Position numbers and translations under genes: made by a program
Origin: Butyrivibrio sp.
GTDB taxonomy: Bacteria; Bacillota; Clostridia; Lachnospirales; Lachnospiraceae
Direction: 5' to 3'
DNA: 39,063 nucleotides
NCBI GenBank assembly: GCA_014799955.1
Contig: JAAVHB010000124.1
Location: 1-39,063, forward strand
Notes under the pieces: generated by a model
The model's database searches: none
What the model was told of the DNA's origin: nothing
Seen by the model: the letters and a program-made list of their open reading frames with translations, nothing else
Shown: positions 10,747 through 19,159 of the stretch, piece by piece
Layout of the letters: every line of letters begins with the position of its first letter
Position numbering within the stretch: position 1 is the stretch's first letter

Positions 10747-12579
10747 TTACGCGTAAATTTCCGCACAGTATTTCTCTGCCTGTACATTCCACATCTCAGC
10801 ATATTTTCCGCAGCCTGCGATAAGTTCGGAGTGGGTGCCGCTTTCGGCAATACTTCCGTTTTCAAGAAGAATAATCCTGTCTGCGTCCTTTGTGGTGGAA
10901 AGACGGTGAGAAATCAGAATTACAGCTTGATTTTCTGCGTTTTCAAGCATACTTTTGTTAAGGCGGTACTCGGCAATCGGGTCAAGAGCGGACGAAGGTT
11001 CGTCAAGGATTGCAACAGGCATATCGCGGACGAACATTCTCGCAATCGCCACCTTCTGCGACTCGCCGCCCGAAAGCATTGTTCCGCTGTCGGAAAATTC
11101 CTTTGTAAGCTCCGTGTCAATGCTGTCGGAAAGCTTTTCCAGCTTATTTCCGAAATCGGCTCTTTTCAGAACCGTAAGTACTTTTTCTCTTTCGCCGCCG
11201 TCGCCTTCGTTTACAAAATCCATTTTGACATTCTCCGCAAGGGTCGCGCCGTAAATCTGGAAATCCTGAAATACCGCGCCGATTTTTTCACGGTATGCCC
11301 GTATATTCAGCTTTCGTATATCTACGCCGCCGAACGTAATGCTGCCTTCCGTAACGTCGTACAAACGCATGATAAGCTTGATAAGCGTGGTTTTTCCCGC
11401 ACCGTTTTCACCCACAAGCGCAAGCTTTTCTCCCTTTCGTATGGTCATGCTGACATCTTTAAGGACGTACTTTTCGCTGTCCTTATACTTAAAGCTGACG
11501 TTTTTCAGTTCAAGTGTGCAGTCGTTTTCCGGAATGGGTTCAATTCCCTCACAGCCCTCGATATTCACTTCGTATTCCATAAAACGGCGGAATTTTTCCG
11601 CGTATTGACCGACTTGCTGAAAATCCACAAGCGCATAATTCATTCCGTCAAGACGGCTTTTGATGTCATTGGTAGCGTTTTTTAACGAGGCAACGTCCCC
11701 GAGCCGAATTGATTTTTTTTCTATCGCAAGATACGCGAGGCTCACCGGAACCGCGAAAAACTGGCATAACGTAAAAGTGCATATCCAGTTTATAAGCGTT
11801 GGCGGGATAATTTTCAGCGAATATTTCAGCGCCATTTTACGCTCCTCTGCGATTGCCTCGTCATACTGCTCCATAAGTGCCTCTTCAATACCCGTCAGCT
11901 TTATCTCCTTGGCATATTCGGGTTGATAGAATACACGCTTTGAGTAGTCAGCCTTTCTGCCTATACGCTGTTTTTCAAGATTGTATTGATATTCCAGCTT
12001 TGTAATAATAAAACGCGTGACAATGTTAATGATGAAGCCTATTACGGGGAAAATCATTATAACGGGATTTACGGTAATTATCATTGTTCCCGCAATAAGC
12101 ATGGCAGTTATGTTTGAAACAATATTCGCAACGCACATAACAGCCTTTTTAGCCATTTCCTCCGATTGGGAGGCAGCAATGATGAAGTCGTCAAAATACT
12201 CGGGAATGTCGTAATACTTCAAATCCATCATCTGCGCCTTATACATAAGCTCACGCTGAATTGCTCCCGAAAATCCCACCATTCTTGTCCAGAAAAAATG
12301 TTCGCAAAATCTGAAAATCGCGAAACGGACTATCTCCATAGCAAACATAACGGCAAGAACTTTAATAACACTTTCAAAGTCTGCCGTAGTTGTAAAAATG
12401 TCGATGATCTGTTTTATGAGGAACGTATTCATAAAAGCGCCCGCGCCAAAGAAAATACATCTTCCTGCAATGTAGGACAGCGCCATTGTTCTGTCGTGAC
12501 GCAAAGCAAATTCCATAATGTAAAGCACATTGGAAACAAGCCGTTTGATACCGATTTTTTCTTTCTTTTTTTCACTCAC
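10747..12579 (-). CDS. ABC exporter half-transporter, pair 2 second subunit
   Basis: About 610 residues: an exporter-type membrane domain with hydrophobic segments, then an ABC ATPase domain. Visible are the Walker A loop VGENGAGKTT, signature LSGGE, Walker B AILDEPSSALD with a normal catalytic Glu, and the switch His in ISHRLS. The frame is open to an ATG at 12624, but a GTG at 12579 overlapping the previous stop as GTGA, with a GGAGGGGG ribosome site just upstream, is the likely start. It should pair with the preceding half-transporter. Both carry canonical ATP sites and DPIAEY after the D-loop, a style I associate with peptide or lantibiotic exporters; substrate unknown. Confidence 0.88.
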   Translation of the reverse strand: MSEKKKEKIGIKRLVSNVLYIMEFALRHDRTMALSYIAGRCIFFGAGAFMNTFLIKQIIDIFTTTADFESVIKVLAVMFAMEIVRFAIFRFCEHFFWTRMVGFSGAIQRELMYKAQMMDLKYYDIPEYFDDFIIAASQSEEMAKKAVMCVANIVSNITAMLIAGTMIITVNPVIMIFPVIGFIINIVTRFIITKLEYQYNLEKQRIGRKADYSKRVFYQPEYAKEIKLTGIEEALMEQYDEAIAEERKMALKYSLKIIPPTLINWICTFTLCQFFAVPVSLAYLAIEKKSIRLGDVASLKNATNDIKSRLDGMNYALVDFQQVGQYAEKFRRFMEYEVNIEGCEGIEPIPENDCTLELKNVSFKYKDSEKYVLKDVSMTIRKGEKLALVGENGAGKTTLIKLIMRLYDVTEGSITFGGVDIRKLNIRAYREKIGAVFQDFQIYGATLAENVKMDFVNEGDGGEREKVLTVLKRADFGNKLEKLSDSIDTELTKEFSDSGTMLSGGESQKVAIARMFVRDMPVAILDEPSSALDPIAEYRLNKSMLENAENQAVILISHRLSTTKDADRIILLENGSIAESGTHSELIAGCGKYAEMWNVQAEKYCAEIYA

Positions 12580-14378
12580 GGCTTTACCCCCTCCGCTAAA
12601 TAGTTCTGCGCCTGCAATTTCCACATCCGGGTGTATTTCCCGTTCAGCTTCAAAAGCTCTTCGTGGCTGCCCTGTTCGATGACCGTACCGTTTTCAAACA
12701 AATAGATTCTGTCGGCGTCGCGCGTTGCAGAAAGTCTGTGACTGATAAAAATCACCGTTTCGTTTTCGGTGGCATCAAGCATATTTTTATACATATTGTA
12801 CTCGGCAATCGGGTCAAGCGCCGAGGACGGCTCGTCAAGAATAACTATATCGGGCTTGCGTGCAAAAACTCTTGCAATGGCTATTTTCTGCGCCTCGCCG
12901 CCGGAAAGACCCATGCCGTTTTCGTCAAATTCCTTTGTGACCATCGTATCGATACCGTTTTCAAGGGAATCCAGTTTATCGCCGAACTGCGCCTTACGGA
13001 GAGAAGCTTCAACAAGCTTTCTTTCCTCTTCGTTTGCGGGCTTTCTCATAAGCACATTATGTGAAAGGGGAAGCGCGAAAACCTGCAAATCCTGAAACAC
13101 CGTACCGAAACAGCGGTGAAGCGATTTCGGCTCGTAGTCGTTTATATTCACTCCGTTTACAGTGATTTCTCCCTCGGTCACATTATACAGACCCATAAGA
13201 AGTTTTACGAAGGTTGTTTTTCCCGCGCCGTTATGACCGACAATCGCAATTTTTTCGCCCTTGCGGACATTTATATTTACATCATGAAGAGTAGGCTTTT
13301 CGGCTCCCTCATAAGTGAAGCTCATATTTTTTATCTCAATATCTGAAAGTTCCTGCGCTTTGATAAGCCCGGAACTGTCGGCTTTTGGCTCGTAGGAAAG
13401 AAAATCCCGCAGATTTGCAACAAATGCGCTTTCCTTTGCAAGCGAAACAATAAGCTCAACAGCGTCTGAGGTGCGCCACGAAAGCGTACTCAGCGCGGGT
13501 ATCATTGCCACGTAAGCGGCAGTCTGAGGTGCGCTTGTACTCAACACAAAAGTTATGTAAAGATACGGCAGTATCGTTGACAGAAGGTTGTAGATGATCC
13601 ATTTGGCAGGTTCGATAACACTGAGCTTTCTGCGTATTTTACGGTTTCTTTCCTGCATTTCATCATATGCTTTTTTGTGACGGGACAAAAGCAGCTTTCC
13701 GATACCGAAAAGACGTAACTCTCCGGCGTATTTCTTTTCGTAGAACACGCGCTTGGCATAGCTGCCGATACGTCCGTCGCGTGTGTTGGAGAAATCGAGA
13801 GCGTAGTATAAATCTCCCTCTTTCTTGCCGAAATACAATGAAACCGCAACCATAGGAACAATAAACACCAGCAGCACGGGGTCAACATCCGCAACAATCA
13901 CAGTTGCCGCAATTACCGAGGCAATGGCAGCAACAAGATGCGCGGAATAGTAAAGAATATTGTTTCCCCGCCACTGACACTCGTTCAGCGCGCGGGTATA
14001 CTTGTCGTAAAAATCGGGCTGCTCAAAGCGGGTATATTCCATTGAAATTGATTTGCGGATGACCCGTTTGTAAAAATCCTGATACATTTTCGGAAGGAAC
14101 TGTTTTTCGCATAGCTGGTGAAGCGCCGCGCTGATATGAATACAGATGTGCCCGATACACATCGCTCCGACAAATGAAACCAGCGCCGCAAACGGCGTTT
14201 CGTTTTCTATAGCTTTGTATATCCACTCTGTCAGGTACACCGAAAAAAATGTCCAGAATACATTTTCCGTAAATTCCTTTATAAATGTATAGATAACATA
14301 TCCGCGGCTTCCGTGCCACAAGATTTTGAGCATATACATTACATTTGACATTGAGGAGCTTTTATCTTTTTTCTTCAT
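12576..14378 (-). CDS. ABC exporter half-transporter, pair 2 first subunit
   Basis: 600 residues: helical membrane domain (about 25-310) and ATPase domain with Walker A GHNGAGKTT (381-389), signature LSGGE (491-495), Walker B VILDEPSSALD with Glu516, and ISHRLS. Both catalytic features are intact, unlike pair 1. Starts at an ATG with an AGAGG ribosome site 23 bases after the previous gene and shares a GTGA overlap with the next one. It probably forms a heterodimer with the next gene product. It differs from pair 1 in sequence, so it is not a simple recent duplication. Substrate unknown. Confidence 0.88.
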   Translation of the reverse strand: MKKKDKSSSMSNVMYMLKILWHGSRGYVIYTFIKEFTENVFWTFFSVYLTEWIYKAIENETPFAALVSFVGAMCIGHICIHISAALHQLCEKQFLPKMYQDFYKRVIRKSISMEYTRFEQPDFYDKYTRALNECQWRGNNILYYSAHLVAAIASVIAATVIVADVDPVLLVFIVPMVAVSLYFGKKEGDLYYALDFSNTRDGRIGSYAKRVFYEKKYAGELRLFGIGKLLLSRHKKAYDEMQERNRKIRRKLSVIEPAKWIIYNLLSTILPYLYITFVLSTSAPQTAAYVAMIPALSTLSWRTSDAVELIVSLAKESAFVANLRDFLSYEPKADSSGLIKAQELSDIEIKNMSFTYEGAEKPTLHDVNINVRKGEKIAIVGHNGAGKTTFVKLLMGLYNVTEGEITVNGVNINDYEPKSLHRCFGTVFQDLQVFALPLSHNVLMRKPANEEERKLVEASLRKAQFGDKLDSLENGIDTMVTKEFDENGMGLSGGEAQKIAIARVFARKPDIVILDEPSSALDPIAEYNMYKNMLDATENETVIFISHRLSATRDADRIYLFENGTVIEQGSHEELLKLNGKYTRMWKLQAQNYLAEGVKP

Positions 14379-14401: not shown

Positions 14402-16186
14402 TCAGCGTATGTTCTTAAACTGAGCCTGATACAGCTCGTAATAGCTTCCCTTTTCCGCCATAAGTTCCTCGTGGTTTCCCGCCTCCTGTATTCCGCCGTC
14501 ATCAATTACAAAAATCCTGTCGGCGTTCTTTATCGTAGAAAGACGGTGGGCGATTACGAAGGAAGTACGGTTTTTGAGAAGCGACTCTATGCCTTGCTGA
14601 ACAAGAATCTCCGTATGCGTATCAATGCTTGAGGTCGCCTCGTCAAGCACAAGTATCGCCGGATTTGACACCATCGTTCTTGCGAAGGCGAGAAGCTGCC
14701 GCTGCCCGATTGAGAGGCTTGAACCGCGCTCGCTTATCTCGGTATCGTATCCCTTTTCAAGCTTCATAATAAACTCGTGCGCGTGCACCGCCTTCGCTGC
14801 CTGAATCATCTCCTCGTCGGAGGCGTCAAGCCTTCCGTACTTGATATTTTCACGGATTGTTCCCGAGAAAAGATAATTCTCCTGCGTCATAACTCCCATC
14901 TGACGGCGCAGACTGTTAATCGTCACGCTCATAAGGTTGTGACCGTCCACAAGAACCTGCCCTTCTGTAGAATTGTAAAAACGGCTTATCAGGCTGACTA
15001 TCGTTGTTTTGCCTGCGCCGGTAGGTCCGACGAGCGCCACGGTTTCGCCGGGATTTACCGTGAAGCTCACATTGTGCAGGACATATTTTTCCGGCTCGTC
15101 GGGATACGCGAAGGAAACGTTCTCAAACTCCACTTTGCCGGATATATCGGGCAGTTCATACGCATCCGGAGTGTCGGCAACCTCGGCGGGCGTGTCGAGT
15201 ATGTCAAACACACGCTCCGCAGCCGAAATGTTGGTGACAAGCTTGTTGTAATAGGAAGCCAGATTACGGATGGGTCCCCAGAACATCGACAGGTAAATCG
15301 CAAACGCCGTATAAGTACCGACGCCTACCGCATCCAGTCCGAGCTTGCGTATTCCTATATAATACAGTAAAAAGGTTCCGATTCCCCATGAAATCTCAAT
15401 CGTGGGGCTGAAAGCGTCAGCCACGACAACGGCGTCGCGGAACGCCTTGCGGTGCTCGTCAACCAGCTCCGAAAATTCCTCCCTTGATTCCTTCTCGGCG
15501 TTAAAGCTCTGAACGATTCCGATTCCGGAAAAATCCTCATGCACGAAAGCGGAAATATTGGAGGATTTTTTGCGCAGCACCTGCCAGCGCTTATGCGCCA
15601 GAATCTCCGCAACATACATACCGGCGATTATTATCGGCAATGCCGCAACCGCCGAGAGCGTAAGCCACGGGCTTCGCGCAAGCATCATAACGAATACTAC
15701 GATTACCGTCAGCAAATCCGGCAAAAGCTGTGTTACCGTACTCTGTATAACGTCCTTAAGCGAATTTACGTCGCCTATAACCCTCGCAAGTATCTTGCCG
15801 GTGGGACGGCTGTCAAAAAAGCTGAAGCTTAACGTCTGTATATGCGAATACAGATTGTCCCTTATGGTCAGCAGTACATTGTTTGAAACCTTTGCCATTG
15901 TTTTCATCCAATATTTGGCAACCAGCATATATATAACGCTGATGGCAAGCGATATTGCCACCACAATCACAAGTCCGTTCCAGTCGCCGCCCTTTATTTC
16001 CACGTCAATCGCGCGCTCCAGAAGCAGCGGGTTGATTACGGAAATTCCGAGCGACAGGAACATGCACGCAAGCACAAGAATAATCTGTTTCTTGTACGCA
16101 AGCATATATTTGAAAAGACGGAGGATTACCTTTATTTTGACGGAATCCTTCTGCTCTTCGTCTTCTCTCACGGAATTTATTGACAT
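14402..16186 (-). CDS. ABC exporter half-transporter, pair 1 subunit with degenerate signature (BmrD/LmrD-like)
   Basis: 594 residues: membrane domain (about 30-320) and ATPase domain with Walker A GPTGAGKTT (387-395), Walker B LVLDEATSSID with catalytic Glu516, and IAHRLS. The signature is LSIGQ (491-495) in place of LSGGQ. In heterodimeric multidrug exporters such as BmrCD, LmrCD and TM287/288 one subunit carries a weakened signature and the partner a non-Glu Walker B, which together form one non-catalytic ATP site; this gene and the one before it fit exactly. It overlaps the previous gene by 10 bases with GGAGG eight bases before its ATG. Confidence 0.92.
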   Translation of the reverse strand: MSINSVREDEEQKDSVKIKVILRLFKYMLAYKKQIILVLACMFLSLGISVINPLLLERAIDVEIKGGDWNGLVIVVAISLAISVIYMLVAKYWMKTMAKVSNNVLLTIRDNLYSHIQTLSFSFFDSRPTGKILARVIGDVNSLKDVIQSTVTQLLPDLLTVIVVFVMMLARSPWLTLSAVAALPIIIAGMYVAEILAHKRWQVLRKKSSNISAFVHEDFSGIGIVQSFNAEKESREEFSELVDEHRKAFRDAVVVADAFSPTIEISWGIGTFLLYYIGIRKLGLDAVGVGTYTAFAIYLSMFWGPIRNLASYYNKLVTNISAAERVFDILDTPAEVADTPDAYELPDISGKVEFENVSFAYPDEPEKYVLHNVSFTVNPGETVALVGPTGAGKTTIVSLISRFYNSTEGQVLVDGHNLMSVTINSLRRQMGVMTQENYLFSGTIRENIKYGRLDASDEEMIQAAKAVHAHEFIMKLEKGYDTEISERGSSLSIGQRQLLAFARTMVSNPAILVLDEATSSIDTHTEILVQQGIESLLKNRTSFVIAHRLSTIKNADRIFVIDDGGIQEAGNHEELMAEKGSYYELYQAQFKNIR

Positions 16187-17961
16187 ATAAGTTCCTCCTC
16201 TCCGATAATTTCCAGCGCCTTACGGTAATCACCGTACTGCGCCTCGTAGGTCGAATAGTATAATCCCTTCGCCTCCATAAGCTCCTCATGCGTTCCGCGC
16301 TCAGCGATATGCCCGTGTTCGAGAATAATAATCTCGTCGGCATGACGCACCGAGGAAATTCTGTGCGCAATGATTATTTTGCTTGTATCCTTCATCTGCG
16401 ACAGATTCTGCTGTATTTCATACTCGGTTTCCATATCAAGCGCCGAGGTCGAATCGTCCAGTATAAGAATCTGCGCATTCTTGGCAAGCGCGCGGGCAAT
16501 GCTCAGTCGCTGCTTCTGTCCGCCCGACAGACCTACGCCCCTCTCGCCGATTACCGTGTCGTAGCCCTCTGTGAGCTTATCGACAAACTCCGCGGCGTGC
16601 GCGGCGGATACCGCGCTCTTTACTCTCTCGTCCGACATCGTGCTTCTGCTGCCGAGCTTTATGTTCTGCCTTATCGTATCGGAAAAAAGAAATACATCCT
16701 GCGTTACAACAGAGGTGCAGCCCCTTACAGTTTCAAGGGAAAGCTCCCTTATATCCGTGCCGTCTATCGTTATTTTTCCCTCGCTTACATCGTAAAAACG
16801 GTTTATAAGATTGACAATCGTGCTCTTGCCCGCGCCCGTAACTCCCATTATTCCGAGAGTTTTGCCCTTCGGAAGTTCAAAGCTTATGCCGTCAAGAATT
16901 CTGCTGTCATTCATTGAGAAGGACACATCTTCAAAGCAAAGGATTCCTTCCACCTTGTCGGGTGTCACCGCGTCGGGTGCATTGTAAATCTCAGGCTTTT
17001 CCGCCAGTATCTTGTTAATCTTTTTGTTGGAGGCAAACGCAGCCGCAAGCGCGTTGGTAAGCCAGCCCATATTCTCCATGGGCCATACGATATTGTTGGC
17101 ATACTGTATAAACGCAGTAAGCACGCCCAACGACACGTTCCTGTATATAACGGCGTAACCTCCGATCAGAAGCACGGCAAGCTGCATAACCTTCGGCACA
17201 AAGCCCATGTTAGGGTCAAATTTTGCCATGATTGTCGCCTGCTTGACGTTAAGCTCGGAATATTTTTCGTTGTTCTTCCTGAACTTCTCAAGCTCGTAAT
17301 CTTCTCTGGCAAAGGACTTGACCGTCCTCACGCCGGAAAGATTTTCCTGTACCACGGTGTTGAGCACCGCATTCTGCTCGCTTATGTCGTCGTAAACCTT
17401 ATCGAGCCTTCGCTCAAGTCTTATCGCCATAAATCCCATAACCGGCATTGCGGCAATCGGAATAAGGCTGAGCTGCCAGTTAAGCCTGAGCATACATATT
17501 ACCACTCCCACAAGGTACAGAACCGCTTCTATGATAAGCATTCCGACAAAACCGAAAACATCCCATATCCTGTCAACGTCATCCTTTACCCTCGCCATAA
17601 GCTCTCCGGTATTATTCTTGTTAAAATATGACCGTGACAGCGTCTGTATATGGTTAAAGAGGTTTTTTCTGCTCATGCTCGCGACACGGCTTCCGCATAT
17701 ATCGCATGTAAATTCCTTGACATACTGAGCTACCGCCCTGCCGCCGCCTATAATAAGAATAAAAACCAAATCCTTTTTCAGAATCTCCATATTACCGCCC
17801 ACAAGCACATCGTCAACGATTGACTTTGTGACAAGCGGAAACCACACGTCAAGCGCCACGGAAACCAAAAGCGCCGCCAGGGCAATCAGGTATCTCCACC
17901 AGTTGCGCCCGACATATTTTCCGATTGGATTTTTGTTCACCTTTTCTTTACTCCTGCTCAT
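16177..17961 (-). CDS. ABC exporter half-transporter, pair 1 subunit with Asp at catalytic Walker B position (BmrC-like)
   Basis: 594 residues: membrane domain (about 20-320) and ATPase domain with Walker A GVTGAGKST (373-381), signature LSGGQ (478-482) and His533 in IAHRIS. Walker B reads LILDDSTSALD, with Asp503 where a catalytic Glu is normal. This is the degenerate-site subunit of a heterodimeric exporter; the partner is the overlapping next gene. A multidrug or toxic-compound export role is the usual one for this class. It is the first ABC gene after the leader and terminator structures, with AAGGAGG eight bases before the ATG and the terminator U-run directly upstream of it. Confidence 0.92.
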   Translation of the reverse strand: MSRSKEKVNKNPIGKYVGRNWWRYLIALAALLVSVALDVWFPLVTKSIVDDVLVGGNMEILKKDLVFILIIGGGRAVAQYVKEFTCDICGSRVASMSRKNLFNHIQTLSRSYFNKNNTGELMARVKDDVDRIWDVFGFVGMLIIEAVLYLVGVVICMLRLNWQLSLIPIAAMPVMGFMAIRLERRLDKVYDDISEQNAVLNTVVQENLSGVRTVKSFAREDYELEKFRKNNEKYSELNVKQATIMAKFDPNMGFVPKVMQLAVLLIGGYAVIYRNVSLGVLTAFIQYANNIVWPMENMGWLTNALAAAFASNKKINKILAEKPEIYNAPDAVTPDKVEGILCFEDVSFSMNDSRILDGISFELPKGKTLGIMGVTGAGKSTIVNLINRFYDVSEGKITIDGTDIRELSLETVRGCTSVVTQDVFLFSDTIRQNIKLGSRSTMSDERVKSAVSAAHAAEFVDKLTEGYDTVIGERGVGLSGGQKQRLSIARALAKNAQILILDDSTSALDMETEYEIQQNLSQMKDTSKIIIAHRISSVRHADEIIILEHGHIAERGTHEELMEAKGLYYSTYEAQYGDYRKALEIIGEEELICQ

Positions 17962-17970
17962 ATTTCCTCC

Positions 17971-18073
17971 TTTTTATATAAAAACAGCCCACCGGTAACC
18001 CGCGTTTCGCGCATACAAACGCAAAACAAAAGCCGCCGTCCTGTTACAGACTGCGGCGTATTACCGATGGGCT
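17971..18073 (-). terminator. Attenuator terminator directly before the first ABC gene
   Basis: In the minus-strand transcript AGCCCATCGGTAA (18061-18073) pairs along 13 positions (one T-G wobble) with TTACCGGTGGGCT (17986-17998), followed by GTTTTTATAT and at once by the AAGGAGG of the ABC gene. The 62-base loop holds other hairpins. A terminator between a promoter with a small ORF and the first gene is the layout of an attenuator. Confidence 0.75.
18022..18057 (-). terminator. Second hairpin with U-rich tail inside the leader
   Basis: GCCGC (18053-18057) pairs with GCGGC (18032-18036), extended past one mismatch by four more pairs around a GTAACA-type loop, and is followed by TTTTGTTTTG. 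It lies within the loop of the larger terminator. It may be a terminator itself or support the larger fold. Confidence 0.5.
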
Positions 18074-18096
18074 TATATATTCAGAAACTATCCGAC

Positions 18097-18208
18097 AATA
18101 AGCTTAACAGCGTATTACGAGGCAGGCTGCAACAATGCTATAAGAATTATTAAAATCGACTATATATTTAACGGTTTTAAACATAAATCCTACCTCCTTA
18201 AGCTTATT
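18097..18208 (-). repeat. 11-bp inverted repeat bracketing the leader ORF
   Basis: AATAAGCTTAA just before the leader ribosome site (18198-18208) and its exact complement TTAAGCTTATT overlapping the leader stop codon (18097-18107) can pair around the whole ORF. A ribosome on the leader would prevent this pairing. A 9-base direct repeat, GTAATACGC, also occurs at the leader's end (18110-18118) and in the terminator region (18056-18064). Confidence 0.6.
18104..18184 (-). CDS. 26-residue leader peptide upstream of the ABC operon
   Basis: ATG at 18184 to TAA at 18104. The peptide begins MFKTVKYIVDFNNSY and ends VAACLVIRC. TAAGGAGG lies eight bases before the ATG, and a strong promoter lies 57 bases upstream of the start, so translation is well supported despite the size. 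The middle is hydrophobic and the whole resembles the first segment of a half-transporter N-terminus. Placement before terminator hairpins and an asymmetric multidrug exporter pair matches bmrB upstream of bmrCD in Bacillus, a leader whose stalled translation under ribosome-targeting drugs prevents termination. That function here is inference. A peptide substrate of the transporters, or a remnant of a lost ABC gene, are alternatives. Confidence 0.65.
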   Translation of the reverse strand: MFKTVKYIVDFNNSYSIVAACLVIRC

Positions 18209-18240
18209 TGATGCTGCCAAACCAAACAGCGCCTTTAATA

Positions 18241-18269
18241 AAGCTAACACTGCCGGATAAATTTGTCAA
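18241..18269 (-). promoter_or_regulatory. Promoter of the leader-ABC operon
   Basis: Minus strand: consensus -35 TTGACA (18264-18269), 17-base spacer, -10 TAGCTT (18241-18246) preceded by TGT (extended -10). Start of transcription falls near 18234, about 50 bases before the leader ATG. Confidence 0.75.
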
Positions 18270-18295: not shown

Positions 18296-19090
18296 TTAAA
18301 ATTCCAGATTATCGGGCATCACATACCATTTGCCGCCTGATTTGTACAGCACAAGCGGCGCAGAACTTTCCTGCCATTCTTCATAATAGGAGTTCCATAC
18401 TTCATATGTCACTTCCGCCTCACACATATCGCTGATTTTTACGCTTGATCCCATCTGTCTGTTAATTTTTCTGACAAAATCACTGACTTCGGATTTATCG
18501 TACTTTTCGCTGTCCGTAATCCTGATGCGCCTGTATTTGTAGTTTGTGCTTGACGCCGTAATTGAAGCTCTCATAAGACGGACTATACGCTCCTTGTCAA
18601 AACCCGAATCCTCCTCTATCGCCTTGAGAAGACTGTCGGATACCATAGCGTCAAGCAGCGCCTCTCCGTCCTTTGAGTAAAGCGCGTTATAATACGCCTT
18701 TACGGCTCCGTTTTTCGTGAGGCTTCCGCTTCCGGTTACATACCTGAAAAAGAACACAAGGAAGAGAATTATAAGCACTGCAGCGGCTCCGAATAAAGGG
18801 ATAAGCCTGCGCCTTGATTTCTGCTTTTTTTTCTTAACCCTTCCGACCTTGCCGTCCGCAGAAGGATTTTGTGAATACATATTCTGAAGCTGCTGTTCTG
18901 CACTCAAAGAGTCATATGTGTACATAGGGCGCGAGCCGTCCGACGTGTCATATGTATAGGACGGTCCGGCAAAGCTGTCCGTATACTCCGGAGCCTGCTG
19001 CGATAATCCGTTTGTCTGCGGGGTTCCGCAGCCCGGGCAGAAATTATCCCCGTCGTTCATCTGTTTACCGCATTTAGCACAATACTTCAT
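18296..19090 (-). CDS. Zinc-ribbon single-pass membrane protein
   Basis: 264 residues from the ATG at 19090, which has GGAGG eight bases upstream; the frame is open to 19159 but without a ribosome site. A zinc ribbon CxxC...CxxC uses Cys4, Cys7, Cys18 and Cys21. A Gln/Ser/Tyr-rich linker with two copies of YTYD follows, then a basic patch (84-95), one membrane span (about 96-117), and an outside domain of roughly 145 residues that resembles the NTF2-like/DUF4878 group seen in such proteins. The topology puts the ribbon inside and the domain outside. Function unknown; a sensory or envelope-assembly role is possible. It has its own promoter. Confidence 0.8.
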   Translation of the reverse strand: MKYCAKCGKQMNDGDNFCPGCGTPQTNGLSQQAPEYTDSFAGPSYTYDTSDGSRPMYTYDSLSAEQQLQNMYSQNPSADGKVGRVKKKKQKSRRRLIPLFGAAAVLIILFLVFFFRYVTGSGSLTKNGAVKAYYNALYSKDGEALLDAMVSDSLLKAIEEDSGFDKERIVRLMRASITASSTNYKYRRIRITDSEKYDKSEVSDFVRKINRQMGSSVKISDMCEAEVTYEVWNSYYEEWQESSAPLVLYKSGGKWYVMPDNLEF

Positions 19091-19130
19091 TATAAAATCC
19101 TCCGTGATACATCTTATCCCTGTCCATAGA

Positions 19131-19159
19131 ATTATACTATAAGGCATTTTCGGAGGCAA
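19131..19159 (-). promoter_or_regulatory. Promoter of the zinc-ribbon gene
   Basis: Minus strand: -35 TTGCCT (19154-19159), 17-base spacer, -10 TATAAT (19131-19136), about 40 bases before the ATG at 19090. Confidence 0.7.

Follow-up and report, generated by a model that had tools for sequence, protein, structure and literature searches.

A predicted ribosome-controlled transcription attenuator using the leader's own Shine-Dalgarno sequence upstream of ABC exporter genes in Butyrivibrio sp. and its relatives

Leader region and ABC exporter genes

The analysed DNA, referred to here as the window, was the whole stretch of 39,063 nt of the Butyrivibrio sp. contig JAAVHB010000124.1, and all leader elements described below lie on its minus strand. 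The leader region is flanked by the gene of a zinc-ribbon protein (18296-19159) and by ABC1, the first of four ABC exporter genes. These genes are co-directional and almost contiguous from 17961 down to 10747 on the minus strand, in agreement with an earlier note on the same DNA, which had described a four-gene ABC exporter operon. ABC1 (16177-17961) and ABC2 (14402-16186) were assigned as exporter halves from sequence and structure-database matches, the former with a non-canonical catalytic residue (LDDST) and the latter with the canonical one (LDEAT), and the pair has the appearance of a heterodimeric exporter in which one ATP site is degenerate. Among solved structures, P-glycoprotein-like transporters matched best; the matches also included TM_0288 and the B. 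subtilis YheI and YheH chains, which we take to be BmrC and BmrD. An ABC2 homolog followed ABC1 in 66 of 71 loci, and the five loci without it (L042, L047, L055, L068 and L086) all ended shortly past ABC1, with the exception of L068. ABC3 (12576-14378) and ABC4 (10747-12624) are ORFs known from the window alone, the relatives' loci ending before them; they constitute a second ABC pair (10747-14378, minus strand), located after ABC2 in the same orientation.

The leader promoter consists of a perfect -35 element, TTGACA (18264-18269), a spacer of 17 nt and an extended -10 element, TGTTAGCTT (18241-18249). The latter combines the extended -10 TG with a weak hexamer, TAGCTT (18246-18241), correct at 3 of 6 positions, and the designation as a consensus promoter in the earlier note was therefore generous with respect to the -10. 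A sigma-70/terminator pattern scan of the window returned neither this promoter nor the terminator described below, because of limits in its patterns. Promoter-like sites at most 120 nt upstream of the leader ATG were present in 27 of 53 leaders of the family, compared with 9.7% of shuffles. The leader ORF (18104-18184 including the stop) has 26 codons (18184-18107), MFKTVKYIVDFNNSYSIVAACLVIRC, a TAA stop ending at 18104 and a strong Shine-Dalgarno sequence (SD), AAGGAGG. It is surrounded by an 11-bp inverted repeat, with the 5' arm AATAAGCTTAA at 18208-18198 and the 3' arm TTAAGCTTATT, which overlaps the leader stop codon, at 18107-18097; 10 bp of this repeat are retained in a close relative, L028. 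The ORF with its ribosome site and the repeat around it had both been reported correctly. Overlooked at that time were a helix situated inside the repeat, formed by the leader's own SD, and an antiterminator. In the helix, the SD GAGGTAGG (18196-18189, segment 1) base-pairs with an anti-SD, CCTGCCTC (18126-18119, segment 2), located within the 3' end of the leader ORF, and the 5' arm of the repeat extends this predicted anti-antiterminator. The 1:2 helix was the predicted fold once the RNA reached 25 nt beyond the leader stop. The 300 nt from 18260 to 17961 had a folding energy of -104.5 kcal/mol, compared with an average of -77.3 for shuffled sequences (z -5.9), and none of 200 shuffles folded equally well. 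The window's own genome carries one copy of the leader, according to a DNA search. A direct repeat, CGTAATACGC / CGGTAATACGC, lies between leader and terminator; it is not retained in L028 and was treated as chance.

The terminator between leader and ABC1 extends over 17980-18072. Its outer 13-bp stem pairs 18072-18060 with 17999-17987 and is followed by a U-run (17984-17980) stopping just ahead of the ABC1 SD (17970-17966). The inner hairpin, GCCGCAGTCT-GTAACA-GGACGGCGGC (18057-18032, segments 3 and 4), is followed by TTTTGTTTT to position 18023. The nested hairpin with its U-rich tail, the 13-bp stem and the position of the U-run were all as previously described, and the anatomy was completed by a second inner hairpin (18028-18003). 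With two predicted hairpins inside the outer stem, the terminator thus becomes a three-way junction. A comparable outer stem of different sequence was predicted in L107. Pairing probabilities of the ABC1 SD were 0.29-0.84 in the fold of 18260-17961 and 0.21-0.30 in the fold of 18237-17940, so an extra layer of control through pairing of this SD is possible, depending on the stretch folded.

An alternative pairing partner for segment 2, the 3' part of the leader ORF, is the 5' arm of the terminator together with its loop. When the SD was masked in snapshot folds, RNA up to the terminator loop folded as one long hairpin, the antiterminator (18041-18135), in which 18135-18091 pair with 18085-18041. 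When the stop region was masked, this 2:3 pairing was lost. The local duplex of the antiterminator had an energy of -23.3 kcal/mol, with 0 of 200 shuffles as good, and was the lowest among 53 loci. Three competing structures are thus predicted in the window, i.e., SD:anti-SD helix, antiterminator and terminator, and the antiterminator and the anti-antiterminator were mutually exclusive in the predicted folds. In the full RNA the terminator won even with the SD masked, and the free full-length RNA folded into the SD:anti-SD helix plus the terminator.

Occurrence of the leader upstream of ABC1 orthologs

Direct search with leader DNA in 61 genomes gave little beyond G003 (81%) and a 30-nt stretch in G014, and search with the leader peptide in 200 genomes gave nothing below E 0.16 outside the window's genome. 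As these searches recovered almost only one close relative, the survey was anchored on the ABC1 protein. The ABC1 orthologs were drawn from 71 loci in genome contigs, from the 55 of 299 genomes of the family that had a match at E <= 1e-170, and from further stretches. After exclusion of exact duplicates and of regions shorter than 250 nt, 77 non-identical upstream regions remained, with an ABC1 identity of at least 49.5% and with the window included. A strict finder detected the SD:anti-SD helix together with a short ORF in 58 of the 77 regions, mostly from Lachnospiraceae, while the opposite strand of the same regions, used as control, gave 2 of 77 (3 hits prior to de-duplication). Isolates with the leader include Fusicatenibacter saccharivorans D41t1 (L031) and Roseburia sp. 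1XD42-69 (L041). By sequence and folding, 53 of 55 leaders are separated from ABC1 by a terminator, the start of which lies at a median of 50 nt past the leader stop. Conservation in relatives had been set beforehand as a refutation test for the earlier note, and was found for ORF, SD helix and terminator alike. The core proposal of that note, taken as an attenuator with a translated leader in front of an ABC exporter pair, is strongly supported as far as comparative evidence goes, by these counts and by the open reading frame described below.

The strict finder missed 19 of the 77 regions. A sub-threshold leader was visible in some of them, e.g., L126 and L128, and no leader was visible in the stretches viewed of L029, L111, L132 and L134. 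The L029 locus has a close ABC1 ortholog (71% identity), no leader and another ORF directly upstream; it is possibly a natural case of leader loss, which might show constitutive expression. At distant ABC loci the finder was positive in 5 of 36, against 2 of 36 on the opposite strand.

The pairs common to the family form a short SD helix enclosing a variable loop. Flank positions of the helix covary, although the figure is inflated by finder selection; in that set three of the 58 leaders without a GAGG core in the helix (L109, L108 and L113) were dropped, and the resulting 55 rows were reduced to 49 distinct ones. For the swap test and for the antiterminator rank tests below, three doubtful picks (L113, L127 and L151) were removed from the 58, leaving 55 leaders. 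All 55 reached a helix score of 10 with their own SD, which is a product of finder selection. When SDs were exchanged between flank classes, 24.7% of 1660 trials reached this score, and for shuffled ORFs the proportion was 4.9%.

Specificity was examined by scanning 397 whole genomes with each of two patterns drawn from already-seen leaders, ABC genes being ignored. The scans returned 15 sites, eight of which had a correctly placed ATG with a short ORF. Seven of these eight sites had an ABC1 homolog no more than a few hundred bases downstream; four of them (G000, G002, G020 and G274) had been encountered before their pattern was drawn and three (G234, G319 and G387) were new. No ABC1 homolog was present in the examined flanks of the eighth site (G406) or of the seven sites without a short ORF. 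Most of the known leaders escape these scans because the patterns match just two SD classes exactly.

Several further observations were made at these loci. Four Treponema/Spirochaetaceae loci (L049, L050, L051 and L052) have a near-identical 21-residue leader (MDNSVLLAFKCGMTLLSRKTK-like) upstream of ABC1 homologs. In these leaders, the pairing of the SD region with the end of the ORF has energies of -13.6 to -16.7 kcal/mol; strong helices were also obtained from the opposite strand in two of the loci. The four loci possibly represent the same design beyond Firmicutes, or a transferred locus. In L037, L048, L085 and L093, elements of the type GAAAGACCTTG...GCGTGAAAG with an inverted repeat are placed between leader terminator and ABC1, and look like a dispersed repeat. 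A terminator arm, CCGCAGTCTG, noted for the window (18057-18032) and for the CAG/TAG-class leaders L112, L115, L117, L122, L124 and L142, recurs across genera in this class, and many terminators of the TAA class have CCGTGGTA or CTCGTGGGTAAA.

Reading frame, peptide and antiterminator across the family

When helices were sought without the requirement of an ORF, they were present in 49 of 78 regions. The frame of the ATG was open through the anti-SD in all 49, while the other two frames were open in 4 and 4, which argues strongly for a translated leader. The peptide itself, which the earlier note had not recognised, changes fast even among close relatives. Ten leader pairs were compared, two of which were dropped due to unequal length. 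Of the 12 codons that differ between the window and L028, 11 have nonsynonymous changes, and the anti-SD is identical (0 of 8 nt changed). In the seven other pairs, which share members, nonsynonymous changes exceeded synonymous ones (from 7 versus 0 to 13 versus 8), and the anti-SD differed in one of the seven, by one base. Furthermore, with respect to the start codon, the anti-SD core is distributed over the three reading frames (35, 12 and 6 of 53), and it is therefore the RNA, not the peptide, that is kept. Judged from these comparisons, two properties are conserved: the ability of a ribosome to initiate and translate there, and the complementarity between its landing site and the final part of the ORF.

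Leader peptides such as ermCL and MsrDL stall the ribosome at a fixed codon. A dedicated arrest peptide of this kind, which together with a particular drug or metabolite would stall the ribosome while the RNA merely reports, would explain the strictly open frame (49/49). It would also be in line with isoleucine as the second residue in 21 of 55 leaders, many of which start with MIK or MIN, and with the NFI and RFTS stretches that related TAA-class leaders have in common. The isoleucine may provide a context that favours arrest by drugs during initiation, or may be inherited from a common ancestor. In the pair L030/L032 changes at third codon positions (17 of 31) were more frequent than in the other pairs, a hint of some peptide constraint. 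However, changed codons were mostly nonsynonymous in the eight pairs (with shared members), and the recurrent C-terminal residues are the ones encoded by the anti-SD, itself found in all three frames. We consider a dedicated arrest peptide unlikely, though it carries some weight. Ribosome arrest near the start codon appears to fit better, because the peptide varies while the pairing of the ribosome-binding site is kept.

The fit between anti-SD and terminator was assessed by rank tests, in which kinship was corrected by thinning only; these controlled tests superseded an earlier look at antitermination based on a chosen set of 25 loci. A terminator arm was matched more closely by its own anti-SD than by those from other classes (mean rank 0.26, p 4e-6), and an anti-SD fitted its own terminator better than other terminators (mean rank 0.31, p 4e-5). 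The corresponding ranks were 0.41 and 0.39 within the TAA class (p 0.026 and 0.018) and 0.21 and 0.29 within the CAG/TAG class (p 0.002 and 0.027). Removal of 14 near-copies from 53 gave a thinned set of 39 with p 2e-4 and 3e-4. In some loci the terminator arm is similar to the leader's SD, e.g., TGAGGTAAAG / CTAGGTAAAG in L155, and the motif CAGnCTG was found in the terminator arm of 10 of 14 CAG/TAG leaders versus 1 of 35 TAA leaders. On the ABC1 tree, which has 41 rows since leaders whose locus lacks a long ABC1 stretch were left out, this contrast between SD class and terminator amounts to approximately one deep split, the TAA class being one change out of 5 changes in total. No preference of the own anti-SD for the own terminator was seen in L110, L116, L120, L125, L135, L137, L138, L143, L149 and L156, nor in L035, L037, L045 and L140. 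The predicted antiterminator is proposed for the family as a whole and not for each single locus.

The many loci where an own antiterminator is not evident, as well as the folding of free full-length RNA into SD:anti-SD helix plus terminator, would be expected if regulation took place at the level of translation, with the helix merely lowering leader translation and a constitutive terminator trimming exporter expression without any drug switch. Such autoregulation is at odds with the fit between own anti-SD and terminator arm, which exceeds controls also within classes, and with the very strong antiterminator of the window, and we regard it as quite improbable. A riboswitch, or a protein-bound RNA sensing a ligand with the ORF as an incidental feature, would agree with the strong conserved structure and the terminator and with the absence of the element from Rfam: at gathering score, Rfam 15 gave 0 matches in the window and in the loci of 14 relatives. 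On the other hand, a frame open in 49 of 49 cases, a strong SD and a stop shortly past the anti-SD are not what an incidental ORF would show. In a four-row alignment of the genus the SD, the anti-SD and CAGTCTGTA of the terminator were conspicuous invariant blocks, and the longer invariant blocks coincided with the pairing segments, so that ligand sensing by the RNA itself is given very little credence. An amino-acid attenuator of the trp type, responding to charged tRNA, would have the identical four-segment layout, but with no single-amino-acid run in the window leader, none common to the leaders listed, and an operon encoding exporters, it can practically be dismissed.

Proposed mechanism and relation to known systems

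We favour the following reading, and hold it to be probably correct: four RNA segments compete in a transcription attenuator controlled by the ribosome, the leader SD serves as segment 1, and a ribosome held there turns on the exporter. The remaining segments would be the anti-SD within the 3'-terminal part of the ORF (2), the terminator 5' arm with its loop (3) and the terminator 3' arm (4). In a leader that is not initiated, 1:2 would form first, reinforced in the window by the 11-bp repeat, and 3:4 would terminate transcription. Under normal translation, ribosomes would cross segment 2 on their way to the stop and block 2:3 while the terminator emerges, so that 3:4 would again terminate. 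A ribosome arrested at the SD or on the initial codons would cover segment 1 and leave segment 2 free; 2:3 could then form and the ABC operon would be transcribed. Holding agents might be drugs that block initiation or early elongation, or other conditions. The three structures, their conservation and the maintenance of an open ORF are results of the computation. By analogy with vmlR and bmrCD, ribosome arrest would be the trigger, drugs would be its cause, and the exporter would remove such a compound.

The folds also constrain how this attenuator would have to operate. In the snapshot without masking, the antiterminator was still the minimum, at -55.8 against -46.5 with SD:anti-SD enforced. 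Since 2:3 thus beats 1:2 at equilibrium, an OFF state in the absence of translation requires that 1:2 persists for kinetic reasons. Likewise, as the terminator wins in the full RNA with the SD masked, antitermination must be kinetic too. The anti-SD ends at a median of 21 nt ahead of the end of the stop codon, and a terminating ribosome may therefore cover it only partly.

A wider reading is put forward more tentatively, as a possibility that we do not hold to be established. It would see a widespread family in which the ribosome-binding site is the sensor strand and the anti-SD toggles between the leader SD and an SD-like terminator arm, so that any ribosome parked at the start, with any drug and any peptide, activates the exporter.

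Ribosome-mediated transcription attenuation of drug-export and resistance genes is an already known class. In the translation attenuators of ermC and cat-86, a leader ORF senses a ribosome drug and the SD of the downstream gene is sequestered. The leader ORF described here would likewise be a sensor of ribosome drugs; in contrast to ermC and cat-86, a terminator intervenes, and the pairing of the ABC1 SD varies with the stretch folded.

The comparison in the earlier note was with bmrB of B. subtilis, the 53-codon leader of bmrCD, whose structures are placed within nucleotides 60-162 of the ORF in the part of the report used here (PMC4191407). The same part describes a leader switch with a ribosome stall on the leader, demonstrated experimentally, and its layout is shared by the present locus, i.e., a small and probably translated ORF, a terminator and a predicted antiterminator and anti-antiterminator before a heterodimeric multidrug ABC exporter (PMC4191407). 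The cargo is similar as well, as ABC1 with LDDST and ABC2 with LDEAT have one degenerate site and the YheI and YheH chains were among their matches. The analogy therefore stands for the class of mechanism and for the exporter, but not for the wiring, since the anti-antiterminator here uses the leader's own SD. In the window, segment 1 is the leader SD, upstream of the ORF, which sets it apart from bmrB as described in that part of the report, a contrast drawn by description and not by sequence; also, the terminator follows the leader stop, at a median of 50 nt across the family, instead of lying inside the ORF (PMC4191407).

The vmlR gene of B. subtilis is preceded, according to the sections of the publication drawn upon, by a switch between anti-antiterminator, antiterminator and terminator that depends on a uORF and is induced when drugs stall ribosomes at initiation; its logic was demonstrated experimentally, the uORF encodes the tripeptide Met-Ile-Asn and the regulated gene encodes an ABC-F protein (PMC9226507). 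The second-position isoleucine of 21 of 55 leaders recalls this tripeptide. Unlike vmlR, where in the same sections the SD is single-stranded ahead of the anti-antiterminator hairpin, the SD here forms one side of that helix, and the regulated gene encodes an ABC exporter instead of an ABC-F (PMC9226507). A Lactobacillus 'ABC-leader', predicted in two lactobacilli, resembles the present element in that a premature terminator precedes an operon for multidrug ABC export in Firmicutes; the comparison is by description alone, and the portion of text describing it mentions no leader ORF or SD pairing (PMC2965389). The wiring proposed here, with the own SD as the anti-antiterminator strand, an SD-like terminator arm and little conservation of the peptide, was not found in the open-access papers that the searches returned, and neither was the family, which is broad in Lachnospiraceae and without an Rfam match.

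As the logic of the proposed switch would be independent of the peptide sequence, searches for conserved leader peptides would miss such elements, and more of them could come to light by looking for leader ORFs that are able to pair with their own ribosome-binding site. If the proposed attenuator is true, it would provide a compact test of how ribosome position is converted into a transcription decision, and would point to drugs holding ribosomes at or near start codons as those that induce the exporter. It would then be a common regulatory RNA of Lachnospiraceae that links ribosome state to a conserved, P-glycoprotein-like exporter pair.
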